From OCS116 cluster bacterium AG-390-A19 (lineage in GTDB: Bacteria; Pseudomonadota; Alphaproteobacteria; MED-G09): a DNA stretch of 64,000 bases. The notes beneath the pieces were generated by a model. The model was not told where the DNA came from, searched no databases, and was given only the letters and a program-made list of their open reading frames with translations. Position numbers and translations under genes: made by a program. The DNA is taken from contig QCGV01000004.1 in NCBI GenBank assembly GCA_003278145.1, positions 1-64,000 on the forward strand. Direction: 5' to 3'. Shown piece by piece: positions 24,101-52,475 of this stretch; the stretch's first letter is position 1, and each line of letters opens with the position of its first letter.

Positions 24101-25065
24101 TAAAAACCCATTTCTTTTGCTAAACGAGCTCCATAGGTAATAATATATTGAGCTCCAGCCCTTCGCATTACATGCCAAGTCTCTTTAAGTGACTCATTTA
24201 AATTTAATAAACCTTTTTCCTCTGATAAACACAGGCCAGCATATTCTCCACTTACTTGATAAGAGCCAACCATTAAATTAGTTTTTTCTCTAATTTCATT
24301 TATTAAATCAATTGAGGTAAGGCCTGGTTTAACCATGAGCATATCTGCACCTTCTTCAGCACATCTTATGCTAGCTCTAATAGCTTCAGATTTACTTCTA
24401 TAGTCTAATTGATACTGTTTTCTATCTCCAAAGGAAGGTGCTGATGAGGCAGCTTCTCTAAATGGACCATAAAAATTACTAGAAAATTTTGTACTGTAGC
24501 TAACAATCGGTTTCATTGAAAATTTCTTATTATCAAGAGTTTTTCTTATTGATAAAGTCCTACCATCCATCATATCACTAGGCGCAATAATATCTGAACC
24601 TGCTTCTGCATAGCTAAGAGCAATATTGGAAATTTCTTTTAGAGTATTATCAAGATCTATTGATTGATTATTATCAAAAAGGCAGCAATGTCCATGATCA
24701 GTTAGGGAGCATAGGCAAACATCAGTCCATAGATTTATATCATCTTTAAATTCTTCTTTTATTGAACTTATTACTTTTTGATGAAAACCTAAGTTAAAAG
24801 ATTTGGAGCTTTTTTTCTGAGGCGAAATAAATAAAAGAAAATTTCTTACTCCTTTTGCTATATCACTATCAATTTGTTTAATACTGCCTTCAATCGACAT
24901 AACGAAATTATCTTTCAGGCCTAAAATTTCCTCATTATTAATAATACTCTCATTAACAAACACAGGTTGTACAAAGTGTGATACAGAAAAATTAGTTTCA
25001 GAACAAAGATCTCTCAATATCTGATTACTTTTTAAACGATGGAGTTTTTTTTCAACTCTTTCCAT
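24100..25065 (-). CDS. hemB: delta-aminolevulinic acid dehydratase (porphobilinogen synthase)
   Basis: DVCLCSLTDHGHCCL, APSDMMDGR, FYGPFREAASSAP, MVKPGLTSIDLI, YQVSGEYA. Confidence 0.96.
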   Translation of the reverse strand: MERVEKKLHRLKSNQILRDLCSETNFSVSHFVQPVFVNESIINNEEILGLKDNFVMSIEGSIKQIDSDIAKGVRNFLLFISPQKKSSKSFNLGFHQKVISSIKEEFKDDINLWTDVCLCSLTDHGHCCLFDNNQSIDLDNTLKEISNIALSYAEAGSDIIAPSDMMDGRTLSIRKTLDNKKFSMKPIVSYSTKFSSNFYGPFREAASSAPSFGDRKQYQLDYRSKSEAIRASIRCAEEGADMLMVKPGLTSIDLINEIREKTNLMVGSYQVSGEYAGLCLSEEKGLLNLNESLKETWHVMRRAGAQYIITYGARLAKEMGF

Positions 25066-26557
25066 TTGTTATCTCATCTTTCCAATCTTCATAATTCAAG
25101 AAAATTTTAATACGATCTTCCGTAACATTCTTTTTTATAATTTCATAGGTATTACCTGGTCCACAAGAATGAAATTTTTCAAGAATTATAGGAAATTGTT
25201 CAATTGCATACTCAAATGCAGACCCGCTCATCCAATAAAAATGCGTCTTTTTTGACAAATCCTCAGTAATTTTGTTTTTAGTTAACCTGTAAGTAAATAA
25301 TCTATCATTTATAAAGAAATCTAATGAATCTTTATGTGTTAATTTAACCCAATCATTATTTGAGATAAATTTTAAATTTTCTTCATTTTCACCCAGACTG
25401 TCAAAACTTCCATTAACCCAATAACCTTTTTTTACTAACTGAAACCAAGTTTTAACACCACTCGACCATAATATATTGGAGCTATCTATTTTTACTTTCC
25501 CATCTAGAACATTGGCTCTACTAGCTAAAATATTTTTATTTCTTAAAGAGCTGATTTCCTCTATGTGATCTTTTAAATTGTTTCTTGAAAAAAAATTATA
25601 ATTTTTTAAATCATATGGATAGATTTTATTTAGATCAATATTACACCAATTATTGTTACTCTCTTCTTCTCTCTCTATTTTTCTTTGGTTCAAAGAAATA
25701 TTATCATCAGTTATACCCTTGAGAGTTAAAACATCACCAAAGTCTCTTTTTTCATAGCTTACACCTATTTTTTGATGGCAGCCGCCTCCATAGCTTGAGA
25801 GAATATTTCTTTCGATTTGAACAGACTCAAATGTTTCTATATCGTTGATTTCTCTAATTAAGTTGATTATGTCATCCCTGCCATCCTTAACCTCTATAGC
25901 AATTGCACCTTGAGCAGGAGCACAAGGATTTTCTGATAGTGGAGGTATTAGCCAATTTGAACTATCTAATATTTTTCTAATATCTTTCGATAAATCAGTA
26001 TTATTGTTTAGAAGTCTATCAAGCGCTGCTTTTGCCAATACAATTCCATCTGCATCGCCTAAAAAGTACTTGTCCAATCTTGTTGGTATATTACCCCTAA
26101 TATTATCAAAACTTATTTTTTCAATTTCATATGGCAAAGCATTTTTTAAAAAAGTATTTAAATTATACTCTCTTCTTGGGGAAGAGGTTAAAAGATTAAG
26201 GGTCTTGTTTTTTTCTATTTTATCTAAATTTTTCTTTTTAAAAAAAATGATATCTCGCATATCAGCTCTAGGAAGAGTTCCTATTATTTTAGTTCCTTTT
26301 GTTAGATTTATAGGTAAGTCCTTCCATGAATGAACGGCAATATCAGCTTCTTCGTTTATTAAGCTCTCTCTTAAATCAGATGTAAAAACTCCAATCTCTG
26401 GTAGTTGGCTTAACGGAGTTGTTAAATCGATATCCCCTCTAGTATCTTTATATAAATACTCTATAGCCATATCACTTTTTCTATCTTTAATAGCATCGCC
26501 TACTAAACAAGCTTGAATGATTGCTAAATCACTTTTTCTGGAAATAATTTTAATCAT
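25052..26557 (-). CDS. hemC: hydroxymethylbilane synthase with C-terminal HemD-like extension
   Basis: HemC motifs VHSWKDLP, TSSPRRE, IRGNIPTRLDKY, CAPAQGAIAIE, GGGCHQKIGV (dipyrromethane Cys). About 200 extra C-terminal residues with FWMSGSAFEYAI and CGPGNTYEI resembling HemD. Confidence 0.85.
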   Translation of the reverse strand: MIKIISRKSDLAIIQACLVGDAIKDRKSDMAIEYLYKDTRGDIDLTTPLSQLPEIGVFTSDLRESLINEEADIAVHSWKDLPINLTKGTKIIGTLPRADMRDIIFFKKKNLDKIEKNKTLNLLTSSPRREYNLNTFLKNALPYEIEKISFDNIRGNIPTRLDKYFLGDADGIVLAKAALDRLLNNNTDLSKDIRKILDSSNWLIPPLSENPCAPAQGAIAIEVKDGRDDIINLIREINDIETFESVQIERNILSSYGGGCHQKIGVSYEKRDFGDVLTLKGITDDNISLNQRKIEREEESNNNWCNIDLNKIYPYDLKNYNFFSRNNLKDHIEEISSLRNKNILASRANVLDGKVKIDSSNILWSSGVKTWFQLVKKGYWVNGSFDSLGENEENLKFISNNDWVKLTHKDSLDFFINDRLFTYRLTKNKITEDLSKKTHFYWMSGSAFEYAIEQFPIILEKFHSCGPGNTYEIIKKNVTEDRIKIFLNYEDWKDEITNGKS

Positions 26558-29115: not shown

Positions 29116-31254
29116 TTAGAATCTTTTCCTTAGTGATATACGTGCATTCAAAGGTTCACCAACGGATGCCTGGTGTGTACTGTGAGAATGCGGGAAATAT
29201 AGCTCATCAGTTAAATTTTCAACGTTAAGCTGAACACTTAAATCGTCTGCAATATCATAATAAGCTGCAAAATCGACGCGCGTATAGTCAGGGAGAATTA
29301 GACCAGGTTTATCATTTTTAATATTAGATTCACCTTGATGCGTAATACCTAAGCCAAGACCAAATTGATCATTAACTTCATACGTAGCCCATAAAGATAC
29401 AGTCTGTTCTGGGATTTCTCTAGGTTCTCCTCCTTTGGCAGTTTCACCGTCAAGGTCACTATAACCAAATGCTATATATAATCTATCAGTTACTTGTCCT
29501 TTAAGCTCAATCTCAATACCGTCAACTTGAAGCCCAACGATTTCAGAATTTTCACCAGTATCGCTATCTCTGACAGCTTGTGTTTGCTCACTATCAAAAT
29601 AGCTTAAAGTAAAGCTTAGATTATCTCTGATATCCCATTTAACACCGATCTCAGTGCTCTCATAAACATCAGGATCTAATCTAGCAGCATTTGCATCAAG
29701 TTTTTTAAACTGCTCACCTGATCTTGGAAGGAAGCTCTCACTATAACTTAAGTAAAGCGATAAGTTTTCTTGAGGTTTAAAAATCAATCCAGCACGAGGA
29801 GAAACTTCTTCGTCTTCTCTTGATTCTGAAGTACCGTTTTTAATGTCCCTTACTGTAATATCGAAACTATCAAAACGACCACCAAGCATAATCTTAAAAT
29901 TATCACTTACATCAATTTGATCTTGAATGTAAAAAGATGTCACTTCAATATCAGACTCAGTGCTACTTTTAAGATCTGCAGTAAAGTCATTATATGTTCT
30001 TACACCTGAGGCATTAACTCCAAAATTAATTGGTCTAGAGATATTAAATACCTCGTTATCATCTTCAGTAGTAATGAAGAAAGTATTATAACGATAATTT
30101 TCATTCTCAGTGTCAATAATTTCAGCCCCAACTAATAAAGTATGTTTCGCTGATCCAGTTTGAAATTCATTAACAATATTACCAGAAATTATTAAATTAG
30201 TTCTTTCTGTAGGATCCTTATAACCATCCGCCGTAAATGTGTCTCCACCAGAGTAACCTGATGCATAATAATTTTTATACATTTTTTGAAAATCACTGTA
30301 CTGAACCACTAAATTACCTTTTCTAGTATCAGAAAATTCATGGCTGACATTTGCGCGAAAAATATCAGCTCTAAGAGTTTGCAGGTTGGTATCGGTATCA
30401 CCAAAGACTATATCTTCAAAAGCTTCTACTGGCTCTCCATTAAGTGTTGGAACACCACGATCAATAAATCTTTCATGGTCTGCATGCTCATAAGATAAAT
30501 CTAAAGTGGTTTGCGGTGATATTTGAACCCTTAATGTTGGGTTGAAACCATAACGATCACCATCATAAAAATCTCTGTGATTTTCTAATGTATCAGAATG
30601 AAAGTTAATTCTTAATGCAGAATTTTCACCGGTTTGAATATTGTAATCAACAGCAAAGTCAAATGCTCCAAAAGTATCTGCGCCCATATCGAATGATCCG
30701 AAAACATCATTTAAAACAGGTTTTTTCGTAACTCTGTTTATAATGCCACCAGTTCCACCTCTACCAAATAAAAGTGCATTAGGTCCTCTAAGAATTTCGA
30801 CTTGCTCTAGATTATATAGAGAACGGTAATATTGAACATCGTCTCTAACACCATCAAGATAAAAATCAGCGGTAGATCTTACACCTCTAAAAACAACTGA
30901 ATCTCTATGTCCCTCACCTTGAGATGTATTAACACCAGGTGTGTAGCGAACAATATCACCAATAGATCTGAAGCCTTGTTTAAGAATATCTGCATCAGTA
31001 ACAATTGATAGTGTTTGTGGCACATCAATAATTGGTATTGGGGTTTTTAGAGCTGTTACCTGATCAGAATAGAGAACCTTACCCCTAACGATAATTTCCT
31101 CAGGATCAGATGAATCCTCTTGTGCAAAAATATTAGCTGACACTGATAAATTAAACATCAATGCAATAAGTAAAAGCTTACTTAATTTAAATTTCATCAT
31201 AGTTTTATTTCCCCAATTTAAAAAATTGTTTTTGTTAATAAGAATTATTCGCAT
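29116..31254 (-). CDS. TonB-dependent siderophore receptor
   Basis: Signal peptide, TonB/plug (EEIIVRGKV, QTLSIVTDADILKQGFRSIGDIVRYTPGV, LEQVEILRGPNALLFGRGGTGGIIN), C-terminal RISLRKRF. Start may be at the internal M of MMKFKLSKLL. Confidence 0.92.
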   Translation of the reverse strand: MRIILINKNNFLNWGNKTMMKFKLSKLLLIALMFNLSVSANIFAQEDSSDPEEIIVRGKVLYSDQVTALKTPIPIIDVPQTLSIVTDADILKQGFRSIGDIVRYTPGVNTSQGEGHRDSVVFRGVRSTADFYLDGVRDDVQYYRSLYNLEQVEILRGPNALLFGRGGTGGIINRVTKKPVLNDVFGSFDMGADTFGAFDFAVDYNIQTGENSALRINFHSDTLENHRDFYDGDRYGFNPTLRVQISPQTTLDLSYEHADHERFIDRGVPTLNGEPVEAFEDIVFGDTDTNLQTLRADIFRANVSHEFSDTRKGNLVVQYSDFQKMYKNYYASGYSGGDTFTADGYKDPTERTNLIISGNIVNEFQTGSAKHTLLVGAEIIDTENENYRYNTFFITTEDDNEVFNISRPINFGVNASGVRTYNDFTADLKSSTESDIEVTSFYIQDQIDVSDNFKIMLGGRFDSFDITVRDIKNGTSESREDEEVSPRAGLIFKPQENLSLYLSYSESFLPRSGEQFKKLDANAARLDPDVYESTEIGVKWDIRDNLSFTLSYFDSEQTQAVRDSDTGENSEIVGLQVDGIEIELKGQVTDRLYIAFGYSDLDGETAKGGEPREIPEQTVSLWATYEVNDQFGLGLGITHQGESNIKNDKPGLILPDYTRVDFAAYYDIADDLSVQLNVENLTDELYFPHSHSTHQASVGEPLNARISLRKRF

Positions 31255-38235: not shown

Positions 38236-40434
38236 TTAAAAAATTTTTTTTCCATTAATACCAAAAATTCTTGGAGCGGCATACTGGTTATACTGTTCAG
38301 TTACATAAAATTTTCTTGGATCGTTCCCAAAGCTACCAAAACCTCTTGTCTGAAAATCTTCATCAGTAATATTTTTTCCATAAAAATTTAATTCATATGA
38401 ATCTTTCTTATAACCTATTACAAAATTAAAGAGACTGTAATTATCAGATTTTGAATTATGCCTATCGGAAAAGTAAAATTCATCCTTTGCTTCAAAATTC
38501 AAGTTTAAGAATAAATATTCACTTAAATTGTAATTTAATGACAAATTAAATTGATATTTTGGAGCATGTGACTGCTCTCTTCCAGATAGATCATAACCTG
38601 TTCCATTTGATGGATCAGCGTTGATATGAGAATAGCTTATAAAATTTTTAAACTCAGTCTCTAGAATTCCTAAACTTGAAAAAATTTCTAATTTATTATT
38701 AGGTATTAATAGAAGCTCTAACTCTATACCATAATTACTTCCTGAAGCAGCATTACCAATATAATCTGAGAAACTGCATGGACAATCTCCACCTTCAATT
38801 CCACTTTCTATAGAAGTAACTAAACTTTGTTTGGTTTGAACATCATCTCGATCTTGATAAAAAATAGATGTCTGTAAAAAAATAGTTTTGTTTTGATTAT
38901 TTGCTTTTATACCTAGTTCATAATTCCACATTGTTTCAGAATCATAATTAAGATTCTGTTCATTTATATTACCTTCAATATTTACACCACCTGGCTTATA
39001 ACCCCTTGATAATAGTCCGTAAATCATTAGGTTTTCAGTTAATTGAGCTTGTAAAGAAACTTTACCACCCCAAAAATTTTCAGATCTTGAATAATTATTT
39101 TCAAAAAGGCAACTTTCTGGCTTGGGATAAATTGCAATACAATAAAAACCTTCCGGAGCAGGTCCATTATTATCAATATAATCGGCTTTCCTTTCTTCAA
39201 ACCTTAAACCAGCTTGTAATTTTATATTATTTGTAAAGTTATTGGTAAATTGACCATAAATTGCTGAATTTCTTGTATCAAAAGAACTTTTGAAATCATT
39301 TTCTAAATAAGTATATTGTCTTATTAGGTTTATGTCTTGGTCCCTATTGTACAAACCAATTACCCAATTAATGTTTTTAAAACTCGAGATATAACGTAAA
39401 TCTATAGTATGATTTTCATTATCACGATTAAAGCTATCAAAAGAAGAATACCACCAATCAAAACCAAATAACTTTGAATCACACGGAGTATTATTGCAAA
39501 TTCCTGTATTACTCCAGTCTTCATCATAAGCATAACCAAGTTTTGAGTCAGCAAAGCTTCCTAAAAGTTCAATTATATCATTATTTTTAAGAGTCTTTTC
39601 AAATTTAACAGATGCTGCAGTAGTTTTCTGTCTATCGTAACCAGGTTCATCGGAGTATGTTACTCGTGTATTATCAAGACTAAAAGCATCATAACCATTA
39701 TCAATATCGGCATAAAAAATACTTAATGTTAATTTGGTAGTATCAAAATCTTTTATAAATTTTGCTCTAGCAATTGTCTCGTCAATATTATTGGTGTCAT
39801 CTCGATTTAAATATATATTTTTAATAAAACCATCATTTTTAGAATTTTTAAGTCCTAGCCTATAACCAAAGTTTTTATCATTTGTGTCACTAATAATTAC
39901 CCCAATATCACTTCCTCCAAATTCTGAAATTGATCCAGAAACTTCTGAATAAAAATCTTCGGTTGGATTATTGCCTACAATATTTATAAGTCCCGCTAAT
40001 GCATTTGCACCATAAAGGGTACCTTGAGGTCCTCTAAGAATTTCTACTTGCTTAATATCAAATGTTGAAGCTCCCAAAGCAATACCTGTAAAATCAATTC
40101 CATCTATAATAACCCCAACAGAATAATTTACTGGTTCTGTAAATTCACTTCTCTCCCCAATACCTCGCACTTGATAAAACTTTCCTCGCGAAGCACCGGT
40201 AGAATAATTAATATTAGGAGCTAAAAAGAGTAAATCTTCCAAATGATTAGCACTTCTTCTAAAAATATCATTCTCTGTAATTACAGAAATACTTGATGAT
40301 AAATTATATGAGTCTACATCATTAAATTCAGCAGTTACAATAATCTCATCAATAGTTGACTCGGTTAGAGTCTCTTGAGCTAACAAAAAAGTAGTATTAA
40401 AAATTAGCACACAAAAATAAAATAAATTCTTCAT
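38236..40434 (-). CDS. TonB-dependent receptor, likely for thiamine or a precursor
   Basis: Signal peptide, TonB box/plug (IDEIIVTAEF, VEILRGPQGTLYGANALAGLINIV), C-terminal beta-barrel; directly downstream of a TPP riboswitch. Confidence 0.88.
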   Translation of the reverse strand: MKNLFYFCVLIFNTTFLLAQETLTESTIDEIIVTAEFNDVDSYNLSSSISVITENDIFRRSANHLEDLLFLAPNINYSTGASRGKFYQVRGIGERSEFTEPVNYSVGVIIDGIDFTGIALGASTFDIKQVEILRGPQGTLYGANALAGLINIVGNNPTEDFYSEVSGSISEFGGSDIGVIISDTNDKNFGYRLGLKNSKNDGFIKNIYLNRDDTNNIDETIARAKFIKDFDTTKLTLSIFYADIDNGYDAFSLDNTRVTYSDEPGYDRQKTTAASVKFEKTLKNNDIIELLGSFADSKLGYAYDEDWSNTGICNNTPCDSKLFGFDWWYSSFDSFNRDNENHTIDLRYISSFKNINWVIGLYNRDQDINLIRQYTYLENDFKSSFDTRNSAIYGQFTNNFTNNIKLQAGLRFEERKADYIDNNGPAPEGFYCIAIYPKPESCLFENNYSRSENFWGGKVSLQAQLTENLMIYGLLSRGYKPGGVNIEGNINEQNLNYDSETMWNYELGIKANNQNKTIFLQTSIFYQDRDDVQTKQSLVTSIESGIEGGDCPCSFSDYIGNAASGSNYGIELELLLIPNNKLEIFSSLGILETEFKNFISYSHINADPSNGTGYDLSGREQSHAPKYQFNLSLNYNLSEYLFLNLNFEAKDEFYFSDRHNSKSDNYSLFNFVIGYKKDSYELNFYGKNITDEDFQTRGFGSFGNDPRKFYVTEQYNQYAAPRIFGINGKKIF

Positions 40435-44800: not shown

Positions 44801-46156
44801 TTAATTTTTTTTCTGAAGAGACTTTTCAATACTAGAAACAATTTTTTCGCAAATATTATTTATCATTGCCTCTTCTTTTGACTCAACCATTACTCTAATG
44901 ATTGGTTCTGTTCCACTCTCTCTAACGATTATTCTACCTTTATTATCTAATAATAATTCCTGCTCGTTAATAATTTTTTTTACAGCTGGATCATTAAGAG
45001 AATTTTTTCCACTAATTGGTATAGATATATTTTTTTGAGGATAAAGTTTAAATAAATTTACAAGTTCACTAATAGGTCTATCTTCAGAACTCATCATAGA
45101 TAAAATCTGAAGAGAGGCAATAAGTCCATCTCCTGTTGTACCGAAATTACTCATCACTATATGACCTGAAGGTTCACCACCTAATTTTAAATTATTTTCT
45201 CTCATACTTTTGACTAAATGTCTGTCTCCAACATTTGTACGAATAAGATCAATACCTATGCTTGATAAATAATTCTCTAAAGCAAAGTTAGCCATTATTG
45301 TTGAAGCTACAGATTTATTCTCCAGTAAACCTCTGTCATTCCAATTTTTTACAATTGCGGCAAATAAAAGATTGCCATCAACCTCCTCTCCTTTTTCATC
45401 AACAATAATCATTCTATCAGCATCGCCATCTAGAGCGATTCCAATATCAGCACTTTCTTCAACAACTATTCTTTTTAATAAATCAGTATTTGTAGAGCCG
45501 CAGTTTAAATTAATATTTTTGCCATTTGGTTGATTGCCTATTACTGTAACTTGAGCCCCTAATTCCCAAAATGTCTCTGGTGCAACTTTATAAGATGCTC
45601 CATTAGCGCAATCTAAAACAATTTTTATATTTTCAAGAGTTTTATCTTTTGGGAAGGATCTTTTAGCATACTCAATGTATCGAGATTGTGCATCATCTAT
45701 TCTTTTAGCTCTACCAATATATTCTGATCTAGGAAACTCCAAAAGATCTTTTGAGAGCATTAACTGTTCAATTTCTAGTTCTTTTTCATCAGAAAGTTTG
45801 TATCCATCTGGCCCAAATAATTTAAACCCATTATCTTCATATGTATTATGTGAGGCTGTTATCATAACACCAACATCAGCTCTTAATGCTTGAGTTAAAA
45901 AGGCAACTGCTGGTGTTGGGATAGGACCAAATAAGAAAACATCCATTCCTACAGAAGTAAAACCTGATGTTAAAGCGGTTTCAAGCATGTAACCAGATAC
46001 TCTTGTATCTTTTCCTATAACAACACGGTGAATATGAGGACCTCTTGTAAATACTTTTCCAGCAGCTATTCCTAATTTTAGGGCTGTATCAGCTGTTAAA
46101 TATGACTCATTTACAGTCCCGCGAATACCATCGGTCCCAAAGAATTTTTTATTCAA
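44801..46156 (-). CDS. glmM: phosphoglucosamine mutase
   Basis: FFGTDGIRGTVN, MITASHNTYEDNGFKLFG, ALDGDADRMI. Confidence 0.96.
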   Translation of the reverse strand: MNKKFFGTDGIRGTVNESYLTADTALKLGIAAGKVFTRGPHIHRVVIGKDTRVSGYMLETALTSGFTSVGMDVFLFGPIPTPAVAFLTQALRADVGVMITASHNTYEDNGFKLFGPDGYKLSDEKELEIEQLMLSKDLLEFPRSEYIGRAKRIDDAQSRYIEYAKRSFPKDKTLENIKIVLDCANGASYKVAPETFWELGAQVTVIGNQPNGKNINLNCGSTNTDLLKRIVVEESADIGIALDGDADRMIIVDEKGEEVDGNLLFAAIVKNWNDRGLLENKSVASTIMANFALENYLSSIGIDLIRTNVGDRHLVKSMRENNLKLGGEPSGHIVMSNFGTTGDGLIASLQILSMMSSEDRPISELVNLFKLYPQKNISIPISGKNSLNDPAVKKIINEQELLLDNKGRIIVRESGTEPIIRVMVESKEEAMINNICEKIVSSIEKSLQKKN

Positions 46157-46176: not shown

Positions 46177-48096
46177 TTAAGTACCTTGAAGACCTGGTTC
46201 TGTTTTTTGAGCTTTTCCACCAGTTTTGGGAACAGAACCTGATAATGTTTTTCCGCCTGTATCATCATCAGATGGATCTTCTCTTGTAGGATCTATACCT
46301 TTTAAAAGATTAATAATTTCATCACCTGTTAGTGTTTCATAATCAAGTAGTCCTTTTGCGATAATATCTAAATCTTTTCTTTTATCTTTGATTATTTTTT
46401 CTGCATTTTTGTATGACTTATCAACTATAACTTTAACTTCCGCATCAACTTGCTTTTGAGTTTCTTCAGACATACTCTGGGTTCTTGCAACAGATCTTCC
46501 AAGGAAAACTTCTTCTTCATTATCACCATAAGATAAAAAACCTAATTTTTCAGACATTCCATATTGCATAACCATAGCTCTTGCTAAATCAGTTGCTTGT
46601 TTAATATCTGAGGATGCACCTGAGGTAACTTTATCATAACCAAATACTTCTTCTTCAGCAATTCTACCCCCCATAGCGACAGCAAGATTTGCAAACATTT
46701 TTTCTCTGGTAATAGAAATTTGATCTCTCTCAGGCAAGCGCATAACCATTCCTAAAGCACGACCTCTAGGTATAATTGTTGCCTTATGAATAGGATCAGA
46801 TGAAGAATAATTTAAAGAAACCAATGCATGACCAGCTTCGTGATATGCTGTTAAAGTTCTCTCTTCCTCTGTCATAACCATAGATCTTCGTTCTGGACCC
46901 ATCATAACTTTATCTTTTGAGTCTTCAAATTCTGCATTAGAAACTAACTTTAAACCTCTTCTTGCAGCAAGAAGTGCAGCTTCATTTACAATATTTGCAA
47001 GATCTGCCCCAGAAAACCCTGGCGTTCCTCTTGCTATAGCCCTTACATCAACATCAGATGATATAGGAACCTTTCTAATATGAACCTTTAAAATTTTCTC
47101 TCTGCCTATGATATCTGGGTTTGGGACTACAACTTGTCTGTCAAACCTTCCAGGTCTTAACAAAGCAGGATCAAGAACATCAGGTCTATTGGTAGCAGCA
47201 ATTAAAATAATACCTTCATTTGTTTCAAATCCGTCCATTTCAACCAAAAGCTGATTGAGAGTTTGCTCTCTTTCATCGTTTCCGCCACCTAGGCCAGCAC
47301 CACGAGATCTTCCAACAGCATCAATTTCATCAATAAAAATTATACAAGGAGCATTCTTTTTTGCCTGCTCGAACATATCCCTTACACGACTAGCTCCAAC
47401 ACCAACAAACATTTCAACAAAATCGGAACCTGAGATAGTAAAAAATGGAACATTTGCTTCACCAGCAATGGCTCTTGCAAGTAATGTCTTACCTGTACCA
47501 GGAGGTCCAACCAATAGAGCACCTTTAGGGATACGACCACCTAATCTTTGAAATTTTGATGGATCTTTCAGAAATTCAACGATTTCCTGAAGGTCGTCTT
47601 TAGCCTCATCAACACCAGCAACATCCTCAAAAGTAACCTTACCGCTTTTCTCATTAAGTAATTTAGCCTTCGATTTACCAAAGCCCATAGCTTTCCCGCC
47701 ACCGCCTTGCATTTGTCGCATGAAAAAGATCCAAACAGCAATTAGTAAAAGCATTGGGAACCATGAAATTAATATATTAAGAAAAATTGAGCCACCTTCT
47801 TTTTCGGGCTTGGCTGATATCGAAACACCCCTATTATATAATCTATCTATTAAATTTGGATCTGAGGGAGCAAATGTTTTAAAAGACCTTCCATCTGAAT
47901 AATGTCCAGAAATATTATCACCAGAAATTTCTACATCCACAACATTTCCTGCATCAACCTCGGCTAATAGTTGAGAGAAAGTTATCTCTGACTGATTTTT
48001 TGATACAATCGGATTATCGATTAGATTATACAAACCTAATAAAGAAAACGCCAATATGATCCAAACAATAAAATTTCTTAAATTTCCGTTATTCAC
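46177..48096 (-). CDS. ftsH: ATP-dependent zinc metalloprotease FtsH
   Basis: [46 protein letters not shown] (HEXXH). Confidence 0.97.
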
Positions 48097-48175: not shown

Positions 48176-49462
48176 TTATATAATATTATTTGATTTTATA
48201 TAAATTTTTATATCTTTTTGCTTACAATAACCTAAAGATGGCACTGAAATAAGTCTTTTTTTTGACCAAATTCCAGGAGCAGTTTTCCATGCTGACAAAG
48301 GAACATTTTGAAAACCTTGTCTTTTTAATATTTTCTTTTCTTTTAATACTTTTGTACCAGCATTTCCAAGAGCTCTTATTTGAAAATTATTAGATTTATT
48401 GGCTTTAATAAAAAATCTATCATCCCAGCAATTATATCTTGTTGTTAAGGGCATAGTAACAGCTGATTTGTAACAATCATCTGGCTCTCTATAGAAAATA
48501 AATTCACCTTTCCTTTTTCTAACAACAACACCATTTAAAGTTCTAGCTAACGCATTATTTTCCTTTAGAAGCCAAATTAAAATATTTTCAAGTTTATTTC
48601 TTCTAGGTGGATAAATTGAACCAGAAATGTTCATAATAATTTTTTCTAAAACTCTAAGTAAAATTTCTCTATCTTTTATTTCCTGAAATAGATTTTTATC
48701 TAAAAAATATGCTATACCCTCAGTATTAGACAAATATTTTTCTAATAATTTCTTTGTTTGACTATTCAATGCATTTTTTGCAGATTGCATCCTTTTTATT
48801 ACTAGACCAATTTGTTTCGAATTAATTCCCTCTTTGGATAAAATTGGTAAAATCTCTCTAATTCTTGATCTTTTATAATTTAAGTTTGAATTACTTGGAT
48901 CTGAAACCCATTTAAGATTTGAATGATCTAGTATATCTAAAAATCTATTCTTAGGTATTTCTAGAAAAGGTCTAACTAATTGAAGTGAGGAAATTTCTGT
49001 TAAAAAATTCATTGCAGCCAATCCATCTACACCCGAACCTTTCCCCAATCGCATTAAAAAAGTTTCTACTTGATCATCAAGATGATGAGCAAGAAAAAGT
49101 CTCTCAATTCCTTCTTTTTTACACCAAGTGGTCATCAACCTATATCTTGTTTTTCTTGCAATTTCTTGAATACGAGTCTTTGGTTTCGTGCCTTCCCATC
49201 TAAGAATTTTAGAGTTGAAGCCCAATAATTTTGCGTTTTTACTAACTAATCTTGCCTCATCTTTTGACTCTTTTCTAAGCCCATGATCAACTACTAGAAC
49301 TGTTACTTTGTTTTTTTCTATTTTTTTTGAAAAAGCTGCAATCTGCATCATTGCAGTTGAGTCAGGGCCTCCTGATACAGCAAGAGCAATAGGTTTATCA
49401 CTAATAAATTTGTTAAAAAGTTCTACCTCGGGTAAATCTTTTATTAATTTGTTATTTTTCAT
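48176..49462 (-). CDS. tilS: tRNA(Ile)-lysidine synthase TilS
   Basis: ALAVSGGPDSTAMM PP-loop, LFLAHHLDDQVETFLMRLGKGSGVDGLAAM. Confidence 0.93.
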   Translation of the reverse strand: MKNNKLIKDLPEVELFNKFISDKPIALAVSGGPDSTAMMQIAAFSKKIEKNKVTVLVVDHGLRKESKDEARLVSKNAKLLGFNSKILRWEGTKPKTRIQEIARKTRYRLMTTWCKKEGIERLFLAHHLDDQVETFLMRLGKGSGVDGLAAMNFLTEISSLQLVRPFLEIPKNRFLDILDHSNLKWVSDPSNSNLNYKRSRIREILPILSKEGINSKQIGLVIKRMQSAKNALNSQTKKLLEKYLSNTEGIAYFLDKNLFQEIKDREILLRVLEKIIMNISGSIYPPRRNKLENILIWLLKENNALARTLNGVVVRKRKGEFIFYREPDDCYKSAVTMPLTTRYNCWDDRFFIKANKSNNFQIRALGNAGTKVLKEKKILKRQGFQNVPLSAWKTAPGIWSKKRLISVPSLGYCKQKDIKIYIKSNNII

Positions 49463-49487
49463 AAAATTTTTAAAAGTTGTTTATTAT

Positions 49488-49994
49488 TTAAAGGCTAATT
49501 CCCTTAGATCTATCTCTTATTTTATCAATATTATAATCATTCCAAAAATTTTCATGAGATGTAAAATTCCATCCCTTTGAATATGAAACAAAATTTTTAA
49601 CTTTAAATTTTTCACGTCTCTGATAAGCAACATATTCGCCAATATTATTAAATTTCATAAAAATAATATTTAAGTCATTCTCATTGGCTGTAGCTAAAGT
49701 TTCTTCAATCCAACCATCCAAAACTTTAGACTCATTAAATAATAAATGAAATTTAAAATCTTTATAAAATTTACATTCACAATTGAAATAAACCCAATCA
49801 TCAGGCGGTATTATATCCCCTTTAAATGCCATAATTTGACCTTGCGACATTGTGTGTCTTCTATCATAATTTTGCCCGCCCAAAAAGGCACCTGAAGTAG
49901 GTACCCTTATAAATTTTTCACCATAAATTTCTGTTAAAAATTTTGCTTTTGCATTTTCAAATGACTTTCCCTTTACTTTTTGTGGTGAGGGCAT
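49488..49994 (-). CDS. putative PDDEXK/Hjc-like nuclease
   Basis: GKSFENAKAKFL...FIRVPTSGAFLGG...GDIIPPDDWVYFNCECKFYKDF: E, RxPxSG, D-x(n)-E-x-K arrangement. Confidence 0.6.
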   Translation of the reverse strand: MPSPQKVKGKSFENAKAKFLTEIYGEKFIRVPTSGAFLGGQNYDRRHTMSQGQIMAFKGDIIPPDDWVYFNCECKFYKDFKFHLLFNESKVLDGWIEETLATANENDLNIIFMKFNNIGEYVAYQRREKFKVKNFVSYSKGWNFTSHENFWNDYNIDKIRDRSKGISL

Positions 49995-50008
49995 TTTAAG
50001 AGAGCTTC

Positions 50009-50752
50009 CTATTGTAATTCATTGAGAACCTCATCAGGCAAATCAAAATTAGCAAAAACCTCTTGAACGTCATCATGGTCCTCTAAAACTTCAATCATTT
50101 CTATTATTTTAATAGCTTTTTCTTTATTTAAAGGTATCTGGTTTGAAGGTTTCCAGGTTAACTGTGATGTAATATCACAACTAAGTTTTTTTTCGATATT
50201 TTCAGTAACTTGATGCAGATCATCTGTAGAGCATGAAATCTCATACTCATCTTCTATTAAATCACAGTCAAGCGCTCCTGCATCAGTCGCTATTTCAAAA
50301 ATATCATCAAAATTACCAGCTGATTTTGGGAATTTTACAATGCCTAGATGATTAAACATAAAGCTAACAGAGCCAGTCTCGCCAAGGTTACCGCCATGTT
50401 TTGAAAAAAGTGATCTAATATCACCTGCAGTTCTATTTCTATTATCTGTTAAAGTTTCAACAATTAATCCAACCCCTTCGATACCAAAACCCTCATATCT
50501 AACGGACTCATAATTTTCACCATTTTCGTCATAACTTTTCTTTATAGCCCTTTCTATATTATCCTTTGGCATATTTTGAGCCTTACCAAGCGCTATAGCT
50601 GAACGTAATCTGGGGTTAGCATTTGGATCGGGGAGGCCAAGTTTAGCAGCAACAGTAATTTCTTTAGAAATTTTTGCAAAAATTTTAGCTCTCTTTTTAT
50701 CTTGAGCGCCTTTTCTAAATTGTATATTTTTAAACTTGGAATGCCCTGCCAT
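50009..50752 (-). CDS. yebC: YebC/PmpR family transcriptional/translational regulator
   Basis: MAGHSKFKNIQFRKGAQDKKRAKIFAKISKEI, YEGFGIEGVGLIVE. Confidence 0.96.
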   Translation of the reverse strand: MAGHSKFKNIQFRKGAQDKKRAKIFAKISKEITVAAKLGLPDPNANPRLRSAIALGKAQNMPKDNIERAIKKSYDENGENYESVRYEGFGIEGVGLIVETLTDNRNRTAGDIRSLFSKHGGNLGETGSVSFMFNHLGIVKFPKSAGNFDDIFEIATDAGALDCDLIEDEYEISCSTDDLHQVTENIEKKLSCDITSQLTWKPSNQIPLNKEKAIKIIEMIEVLEDHDDVQEVFANFDLPDEVLNELQ

Positions 50753-50786: not shown

Positions 50787-51593
50787 TTATTGTTTCTTAG
50801 TTTGAGACAGAATACCTCCAATTCTAAACGGTTCAATTGATTCACTCAACCCATCAGTTGAAGTTTCGATAATAACTCCACATAGGGTTGGTTCACCTTG
50901 AGCAGGATTAAATCTACCACCAGGTGTTTTTTCAACAAACCTTCTAATAGGTTCAGTTTTTTCCATCCCTATGACAGAGTCATAATCTCCACACATTCCT
51001 GCATCAGTTTGATATGCAGTTCCATATGGTAAAATCTGGTAATCAGCAGTAGGTATGTGTGTATGAGTACCTACAACCAAGCTAACCTTCCCATCACAAA
51101 AATGACCCATAGCAGTTTTTTCTGAGGTGGTTTCTGCATGAATATCAATAACTATAGCTTCACAATTTTCACCTAAATGATTTTCTGATAATACTTTCTC
51201 AATAGCTGAGAACGGATCATCTAATGAGTCCATAAAAAGCCTACCCATTACGTTTACAACAAGAATACGCCCAAATTGATTTGGAAAAATACTCAACCCT
51301 TTGCCAGGCGTTTCGCTTGGAAAATTAATTGGCCTAAGAAGCCTATCCTCATTATCAATATACTTTAAGAGCTCTCTCTGATCCCAAACATGATTTCCAG
51401 TTGTAATACAATCAACTCCAGAGGCAAAAAGTTTTTCACAAATATCTTCAGTTATCCCAAATCCACCAGCAGCATTCTCACCATTTACTATAACAAAATC
51501 GAGTGAATAGTCTCTTCTGATATCTGGCATTTTTTTTATTACACAGTCTCTAGCAGATCTACCGACAATGTCGCCTAAAAACAATATTCTCAA
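50787..51593 (-). CDS. TIGR00282/YmdB family metallophosphoesterase
   Basis: MRILFLGDIVGRSARD, VNGENAAGGFGI, TTGNHVWDQRE, VVGTHTHIPTAD. Confidence 0.93.
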   Translation of the reverse strand: MRILFLGDIVGRSARDCVIKKMPDIRRDYSLDFVIVNGENAAGGFGITEDICEKLFASGVDCITTGNHVWDQRELLKYIDNEDRLLRPINFPSETPGKGLSIFPNQFGRILVVNVMGRLFMDSLDDPFSAIEKVLSENHLGENCEAIVIDIHAETTSEKTAMGHFCDGKVSLVVGTHTHIPTADYQILPYGTAYQTDAGMCGDYDSVIGMEKTEPIRRFVEKTPGGRFNPAQGEPTLCGVIIETSTDGLSESIEPFRIGGILSQTKKQ

Positions 51594-52207
51594 TTTTTCT
51601 TCCTTTTAAAACTCAAAAAGTTTTTTTCTGTAATTACTCCATCAATCAGAAAGTCATGCTGTTCTTTGATTGACTCATTCGTCTCCTGAGCAGAAAATGC
51701 AAGCCCATATTTATCACTTAACTCAAAAAATGGAAGACTTCTATCATAAATACCTTGACCCATGCCAAGTCTAGTACCATTTAAGTCAAAACATAACAAT
51801 GGAATTATAATAATATCCGGTATTACAATTTTTTCTGATGAGGGAGATAATATACCTAGAGTATCTCTTACTAGAGGCTCTGTATTACGCCACTCTCTAA
51901 ATTCTATAATTTTATTCTTCTTTACATAAGGAAGAGCTATTTTTGATCCTTGCTTTGAAGCAAAGTTTAGTAAATTTAAACAATCTACCTCATGATTTAT
52001 AGGATTGTAGCCAGCAATAATTTTGTTTTCAAAAATACCAATGGCTTTTTTAAAATTTTTTATAAAATATTTCTTATACTCATTTGAGAAATTAAGAGAT
52101 AACTTTTTTCTTTTCTCTTTCCAGAGCAGTCTTAATTTATCTTTTTCTAGTGAAATATCTTTTGACATATAATTGGCTTTTTTATTAGCATTAAAATTAT
52201 TTATCAA
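51590..52207 (-). CDS. 5-formyltetrahydrofolate cyclo-ligase
   Basis: IIIPLLCFDLNGTRLGMGQGIYDRSLPF. Confidence 0.88.
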   Translation of the reverse strand: MINNFNANKKANYMSKDISLEKDKLRLLWKEKRKKLSLNFSNEYKKYFIKNFKKAIGIFENKIIAGYNPINHEVDCLNLLNFASKQGSKIALPYVKKNKIIEFREWRNTEPLVRDTLGILSPSSEKIVIPDIIIIPLLCFDLNGTRLGMGQGIYDRSLPFFELSDKYGLAFSAQETNESIKEQHDFLIDGVITEKNFLSFKRKKN

Positions 52208-52475
52208 TATTACTATCTATTTTTTTTGTGATTCCTTTTAAAATTCCTGTCATTTCATCAATACTTAAATTATCATTTAATTCTTGATTTTCCTCTTCTG
52301 CTAAAATACCAGCCAATAAGAAAAGTCTTTGCTGATCAAGTTCTCCAACTCTTTCTTTTATACTCTTAACCCTGCTAGCAAATTTCAAAGCAAGATTTCT
52401 TACTTTATCTTCATCGCCGTCAGTGCAAGCGATTAAAAATTCCCTATTATTAATTTCAATGGATATATTTCCCAT
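52197..52475 (-). CDS. zapA: cell division protein ZapA
   Basis: IEINNREFLIACTDGDEDKVRNLALKFASRV; next to the 5-FCL gene. Confidence 0.85.
   Translation of the reverse strand: MGNISIEINNREFLIACTDGDEDKVRNLALKFASRVKSIKERVGELDQQRLFLLAGILAEEENQELNDNLSIDEMTGILKGITKKIDSNIDK

Follow-up and report, generated by a model that had tools for sequence, protein, structure and literature searches.

A phage-type PDDEXK nuclease at the ancestral ruvCAB site of the PS1/OCS116 family, a probable substitute for the lost RuvABC resolvasome

A nuclease gene within a housekeeping gene cluster

The stretch of DNA analysed here (64,000 nucleotides, hereafter the window) comes from the draft genome of OCS116 cluster bacterium AG-390-A19 (1.37 Mb, 83% complete). 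Its minus strand carries, in this order, a zapA-like gene, a 5-formyl-THF cyclo-ligase-like gene, ymdB, yebC, a nuclease ORF, tilS, ftsH and glmM (Table 1). The order from yebC to glmM and the position of the ORF had been read correctly in an earlier note on this DNA, as had the PDDEXK motifs of the encoded protein (E13, RVPTSGA at residues 30–36, GDI at 59–61 and ECK at 73–75). The ORF is separated by 14 nt from the yebC stop codon and by 25 nt from tilS, and these short gaps, together with an AGGAAG ribosome-binding site, suggest that it is probably cotranscribed with the housekeeping genes; promoter and terminator scans gave results at chance level. Elsewhere in the window, a 501-aa ORF (25052–26557, minus strand) corresponds over its first 290 residues to hydroxymethylbilane synthase (hemC), with the other 210 residues pointing to a fusion partner, possibly hemD.

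Table 1. Features of the yebC–tilS region of the window and genes found in the same slot of other RuvC-less alphaproteobacteria
Feature	Position	Strand	Basis or remark
zapA-like gene, ancestral upstream neighbour	52197..52475	-	Named by sequence reading; conserved order
5-formyltetrahydrofolate cyclo-ligase-like gene, ancestral upstream neighbour	51590..52207	-	Named by sequence reading; same order in relatives and in further alphaproteobacteria
ymdB-like phosphoesterase (PF13277), ancestral upstream neighbour	50787..51593	-	Conserved order
yebC, bounding the ancestral ruvCAB slot on its upstream side	50009..50752	-	
AGGAAG, Shine-Dalgarno-like; overlaps the stop codon of yebC and lies 10 nt ahead of the nuclease ATG	50005..50010	-	Direct reading
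Nuclease gene of PF24608 (PDDEXK_15), Hjc-like, 168 aa; putative resolvase of Holliday junctions/branched DNA	49488..49994	-	Pfam, phrog_244, tblastn, 13/13 family genomes with yebC
Glu13 codon (catalytic Glu of motif I)	49956..49958	-	17/18 rows; equals Glu10 of phage Hjc_15-6 by alignment
R30-VPT-SGA36 loop	49887..49907	-	R30, S34, G35 18/18; RVPxSGA string also in Hjc_15-6, PDB 7bgs
Codon of Asp60, motif II	49815..49817	-	18/18; 13 residues before Glu73
Codons of Glu73-Cys74-Lys75, motif III ExK	49770..49778	-	E73, K75 invariant 18/18
tilS, downstream border of the slot; ancestrally after ruvCAB-ybgC-tol-pal	48176..49462	-	
ftsH	46177..48096	-	
glmM	44801..46156	-	
phrog_2002 slot genes in four RuvC-less genomes	L088:8783-9151(-), L089:10121-10429(+), L110:6295-6588(+), L118:10722-11030(-)		
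MOC1-like/phrog_1770 slot genes in three RuvC-less genomes	L115:13428-13925(-), L114:6070-6564(+), L117:11804-12304(-)		

The ORF belongs to a phage nuclease family with an Hjc-like catalytic layout

Comparison of the ORF with Pfam gave a match to PF24608 (PDDEXK_15; E=1.9e-22, 80.4 bits, above the cut-off of 27 bits), which bears the Pfam title 'Phage putative PDDEXK endonuclease'. Given this match and the orthologues present in 13/18 genomes of the family (see below), the ORF is a gene and not a chance reading frame. Among the PHROGs it matched phrog_244 (4.5e-14), labelled 'RusA-like Holliday junction resolvase'. This label is misleading, because no RusA family in Pfam matched at E up to 10; 'RusA-like' was rejected as a fold assignment, the motif order being that of PDDEXK and not that of RusA. 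The top annotated relatives in tblastn searches were large phages, namely Pseudomonas phage PA5oct and its kin (46.6%, 9e-39), Salicola phage SCTP-2 (46.8%) and Sinorhizobium phage Phosso (38%), and remoter relatives were found in SPO1-like phages of Gram-positives and in the D14 protein of T5-like phages. No match to the ORF was found in NCBIfam, among plasmid sequences, among the PADLOC defence families, with the RuvC profile PF02075 or among the VRR-NUC and restriction families of Pfam, and a PDB search with the single sequence returned chance matches only. The outcome that would have spoken against the earlier reading, a match to a non-resolvase family such as restriction or VRR-NUC, did not arise: the ORF matched a phage nuclease family and no restriction, VRR-NUC or defence family.

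In an alignment of 8 bacterial and 10 phage sequences (n=18), residues R30, S34, G35, G59, D60, E73 and K75 were invariant (18/18) and E13 was kept in 17/18. The resulting layout, E-RxxxSG-D-x12-ExK, follows the Glu / Asp / Glu-x-Lys order of archaeal Hjc, in line with the Hjc-like motif order claimed in the earlier note. Over all the comparisons made, the protein came nearer to Hjc than to restriction, VRR-NUC or defence families. A phage enzyme that cleaves four-way DNA, Hjc_15-6, has Glu10, Asp40, Glu53 and Lys55 as its putative catalytic residues (PMC8805305), and the distance from Asp to Glu is 13 residues both in this enzyme (Asp40–Glu53; PMC8805305) and in the nuclease ORF (Asp60–Glu73). 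Hjc_15-6 was also the best match of the family profile in the PDB (7bgs, E=0.01), over the stretch of the Glu and RVPxSGA. The HMMER alignment pairs Asp40 of Hjc_15-6 near Asp44 of the nuclease; Asp44 is absent from the phage members while Asp60 is invariant, so Asp60 was taken as the catalytic residue and Asp44 was rejected. With the Hjc profile PF01870, the window protein gave no match at E up to 10, and one phage relative reached 1.1e-3 and 19.4 bits, just under the cut-off of 21.1 bits. The AlphaFold model of the nuclease was of moderate quality (pLDDT 73.5, pTM 0.73; one of five models good) and its best Foldseek matches in the PDB were archaeal Hjc proteins, but weak ones (E 6e-3 to 2e-2, TM about 0.3); the predicted fold is consistent with an Hjc-type protein.

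RuvABC is missing from the family and the nuclease occupies its site

RuvABC is the standard, near-universal apparatus for resolving crossed DNA strands once recombination has taken place. The search for it covered the RuvC, RuvA and RuvB profiles in 18 draft genomes of the PS1/OCS116 family, six of them 93–97% complete. Neither RuvC (0/18) nor RuvA (0/18) nor a genuine RuvB (0/18) was found, the only RuvB matches being AAA cross-matches of 26–28 bits as against more than 200 bits for a real RuvB, whereas RuvC was detected in 41/43, RuvA in 40/43 and RuvB in about 39/43 comparison alphaproteobacteria. TolB was found in none of the 15 family genomes tested, and part or all of the Tol-Pal system therefore seems to have been lost. 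For RuvA, RuvB, RuvC and TolB, these counts bear out the suggestion made from the window alone that the ruv/tol block is gone or moved, and the proposed search for ruvC, ruvA and ruvB elsewhere in the genome yielded none in any of the 18 genomes. TonB-dependent receptor genes are present in the window (29116–31254 and 38236–40434), while TolB was missing from all 15 family genomes searched for it.

The alphaproteobacterial gene order given in the earlier note was recovered in seven other genomes of the class, in which zapA/fcl-ymdB-yebC-ruvC-ruvA-ruvB-...-tilS-ftsH held either in full or as far as the sequence reached. The gene ybgC normally comes after ruvB, and a gene for a ybgC-like thioesterase (L069:3063–3506) is still present between the nuclease gene and tilS in one sister genus within the family, indicating that the nuclease stands where ruvCAB stood. 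Records carrying the nuclease gene were those of OCS116 cluster, PS1 clade, 'Rhodobiaceae bacterium' and MED-G09 genomes. Every family genome in which yebC was found (13/13) has the nuclease between yebC and tilS, that is, exactly at the ruv junction as had been claimed, and the order ymdB-yebC-nuclease-tilS-ftsH was constant wherever the family contigs reach that far. In the other five of the 18 genomes the locus is unassembled, as yebC is missing there too. The genomes without the yebC region are G001, G005, G007, G010 and G013, two of which are 95–96% complete, and contigs often end within 1–3 kb of the nuclease gene (near L061, L065, L069, L071 and L072). The family thus combines a host without RuvC (0/18) with a candidate substitute that is kept throughout (13/13 with yebC), the pattern looked for in a replacement.

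Relatives in large phages and origin of the gene

The homologues of phages PA5oct, Phosso and Atu_ph07 lie close to genes for SbcCD/gp46-47-type recombination nucleases, the D14 gene of the T5-like phage TS3 lies between an exonuclease subunit gene and a flap endonuclease gene, and the LP65 and EfeBG-143 homologues lie beside exonuclease, primase and DNA polymerase genes. This phage gene context is what would be expected of a recombination resolvase, and in a comparison of jumbo phages REase-fold resolvases were predicted in phages without other resolvases (PMC7824862). In Agrobacterium phage Atu_ph07 the PF24608-like frame lies at L140:3001–3369, where the record has two short hypothetical proteins in other frames or strands; the gene seems to have been missed or broken in annotation.

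In a phylogenetic tree the bacterial sequences formed one clade (100/99), which grouped with PA5oct, SCTP-2 and Phosso (99/97), and the phages of Gram-positives stood apart from this bacterial and large-phage group. The topology fits a single gain in the ancestor of the family, with a large phage or one of its kin as the source; as the root of the tree is not fixed, we infer the direction of this transfer. The base composition of the nuclease gene is like that of its neighbours (GC3 0.18) and hence fully host-adapted, suggesting that the acquisition would be an old event.

Resolvase-type genes of other kinds in the slot of further RuvC-less alphaproteobacteria

RuvC was missing from 29 of 387 genomes of the class. 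In the same 387 genomes PF24608 gave four strong matches, all of them in the PS1/OCS116 family and all in RuvC-less genomes, and one weak match (6e-5, below the cut-off) in a RuvC-bearing genome (G116). Strong matches to PF24608 or to phrog_2002 were present in 7/29 RuvC-less genomes versus 0/358 others (Fisher p about 6e-9); since this test counts genomes, and genomes of the same family are not independent, the count of lineages is the fairer measure, comprising the PS1 family, three family-level groups with phrog_2002 and two family-level groups with MOC1-like genes.

In four RuvC-less genomes (G047, G178, G040 and G172, of which G047 is a single contig of 1,410,127 bp), a phrog_2002 'Holliday junction resolvase' of 97–122 aa lies between yebC and tolQ, and in the class sample phrog_2002 was found only in RuvC-less genomes. 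In three others (G114, G223 and G135, two of which consist of one contig of about 1.2 Mb), a phrog_1770/MOC1-like gene coding for 164–166 aa directly follows yebC, and neither ruvA nor ruvB lies at the locus. The proteins encoded by these phrog_1770 genes are related to the chloroplast resolvase NtMOC1 (5.7e-16); MOC1 has been reported to cut Holliday junctions (for example PMC7078210). MOC1-like genes also occur alongside RuvC: G210, G327 and G262 have RuvC and give strong phrog_1770 matches. No recognisable resolvase was found in the yebC slot of G151, G225, G228 and G214 (L111, L116, L119 and L120), which are RuvC-less or apparently so; the sequence ends at or near yebC in G187 and G104, and G128 and G144 gave no yebC. 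The interval of about 2.2 kb between yebC and ybgC in G228 contains no ORF of 80 aa or more and possibly represents decayed ruv genes.

A probable replacement of RuvABC by a domesticated phage nuclease

We consider it probable that the ORF encodes a PDDEXK nuclease of phage type that has been domesticated and would act as the Holliday-junction (branched-DNA) resolvase of the family in place of the lost RuvABC. The earlier note had offered a non-homologous RuvC replacement or a phage-derived nuclease; these two alternatives are not exclusive, and the absence of Ruv, the match to a phage family and the occupied slot favour both. As RuvAB has been lost too, the nuclease would not be a plug-in replacement of RuvC alone. 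In the proposed course of events, the gene would have entered the PS1/OCS116 ancestor from a large phage or one of its kin and landed in the yebC-[ruvCAB]-ybgC-tol-tilS cluster, and ruvC, ruvA and ruvB, with at least part of the tol block, would have been lost. The protein may dimerise like Hjc, bind the four-way junction and cut two opposed strands by means of a putative Mg2+ site formed by Glu13, Asp60, Glu73 and Lys75, and branch migration would pass to another helicase, such as RecG.

It is unlikely, judging from the slot and its occupants, that the phage-derived nuclease serves replication or repair in some other way (by cutting flaps or stalled forks, for instance) and that RuvABC was lost independently by streamlining. 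Several small-genome alphaproteobacteria have neither RuvC nor a recognisable replacement in the slot, as such a loss would allow, and the context of the phage homologues is one of general recombination and replication, which is not proof of a resolvase role. However, the gene sits at the exact ruvCAB position and is present in every assembled locus of a family without RuvABC, strong PF24608 members are nearly absent from RuvC-bearing genomes of the class, and MOC1-type and phrog_2002 'Holliday junction resolvase' genes occupy the same slot in other RuvC-less lineages.

PDDEXK folds are common among restriction and defence nucleases and the closest named relatives of the protein are phage genes, but a restriction or defence nuclease, or a prophage leftover, with no housekeeping role is very improbable. 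The plasmid, PADLOC and base-composition results led us to reject these readings, and no other phage gene lies nearby. The nuclease is found at the same place in three genera, and its conservation is about equal to that of yebC and better than that of the neighbouring tilS (75% versus 37% identity to L009). Between close relatives the nuclease showed a dN of 0.026–0.041 and a dS of 0.75–1.1 (dN/dS about 0.02–0.05), indicating strong purifying selection. That RuvABC is present and was missed, through incomplete assemblies (the window genome is 83% complete and five family assemblies lack even yebC) or through divergence beyond the reach of the profiles, is hardly credible, since none of the 18 genomes gave a genuine match to any of the three profiles, the same profiles recover Ruv proteins in nearly all other genomes, very reduced ones included, and the ancestral site is assembled in 13 family genomes with no ruv gene there.

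The proposed displacement of RuvABC by the domesticated nuclease is independently supported by the other RuvC-less lineages that fill the same slot with other resolvase-type genes. These loci are best explained if Holliday-junction resolvases of phage type took over from RuvABC at its own site on at least three occasions, with different genes involved. With somewhat less assurance than we have for the PS1/OCS116 replacement itself, we lean towards the view that the yebC-ruvCAB-tol slot is a replacement hot spot: streamlined, largely marine alphaproteobacteria would have lost RuvABC several times, one phage-type resolvase, from a different family on each occasion (PDDEXK_15, phrog_2002 Hjc-like or MOC1-like), would have been installed there, and recombination would be finished without RuvAB branch migration. 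This repeated refilling is read from seven further loci, and because unrelated resolvase families have used the slot again and again, the hypothesis lends itself to direct testing. A family with none of the three Ruv proteins and a phage-type nuclease at their site would show that free-living cells can do without the RuvABC resolvasome or exchange it; these small-genomed marine bacteria have probably given up a near-universal repair enzyme in favour of one acquired from elsewhere. PF24608 and phrog_2002 would each gain a first likely cellular role. A literature search, with subscription journals outside its reach, returned no earlier report of this replacement.

Comparison with known systems

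In PMC1193525, RuvAB and the resolvases are presented as almost universal among bacteria and as seldom transferred horizontally. RecU of the Firmicutes (PMC1193525) resembles the proposed replacement in being a non-orthologous enzyme in the place of RuvC, but it works beside a retained RuvAB and is rarely encoded near it (PMC1193525), whereas in the PS1/OCS116 family RuvA and RuvB are lost and the gene lies at the ruv site itself. The known members of PF24608 and phrog_244, such as the T5-type D14 and the PA5oct gene, belong to the same family by profile and share the same invariant residues; they are phage genes, whereas here the gene is fixed in the chromosome, in a housekeeping operon, at the ruvCAB site of a bacterial family. 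With Hjc and Hjc_15-6 (PDB 7bgs/7bnx) the nuclease shares the E...SG...D-x12-ExK layout, the RVPxSGA loop and the 13-residue spacing from D to E, but its SG loop and Asp60 are about 20 residues further apart, its C-terminal part is longer, and it does not reach the PF01870 cut-off. The phrog_2002 genes occupy the same slot and likewise code for PDDEXK proteins with E...SG...D...ExK, although profile–profile similarity is weak (50% probability) and they differ in length (97–122 aa), in forming a separate family without a Pfam match, in a shorter distance from D to E and in the retention of tol-pal. The MOC1/phrog_1770 genes are also phage-type resolvase genes that lie in the slot after yebC with no ruvA or ruvB there, but they code for an unrelated protein of the RNase H fold, whose relatives are biochemically proven resolvases.
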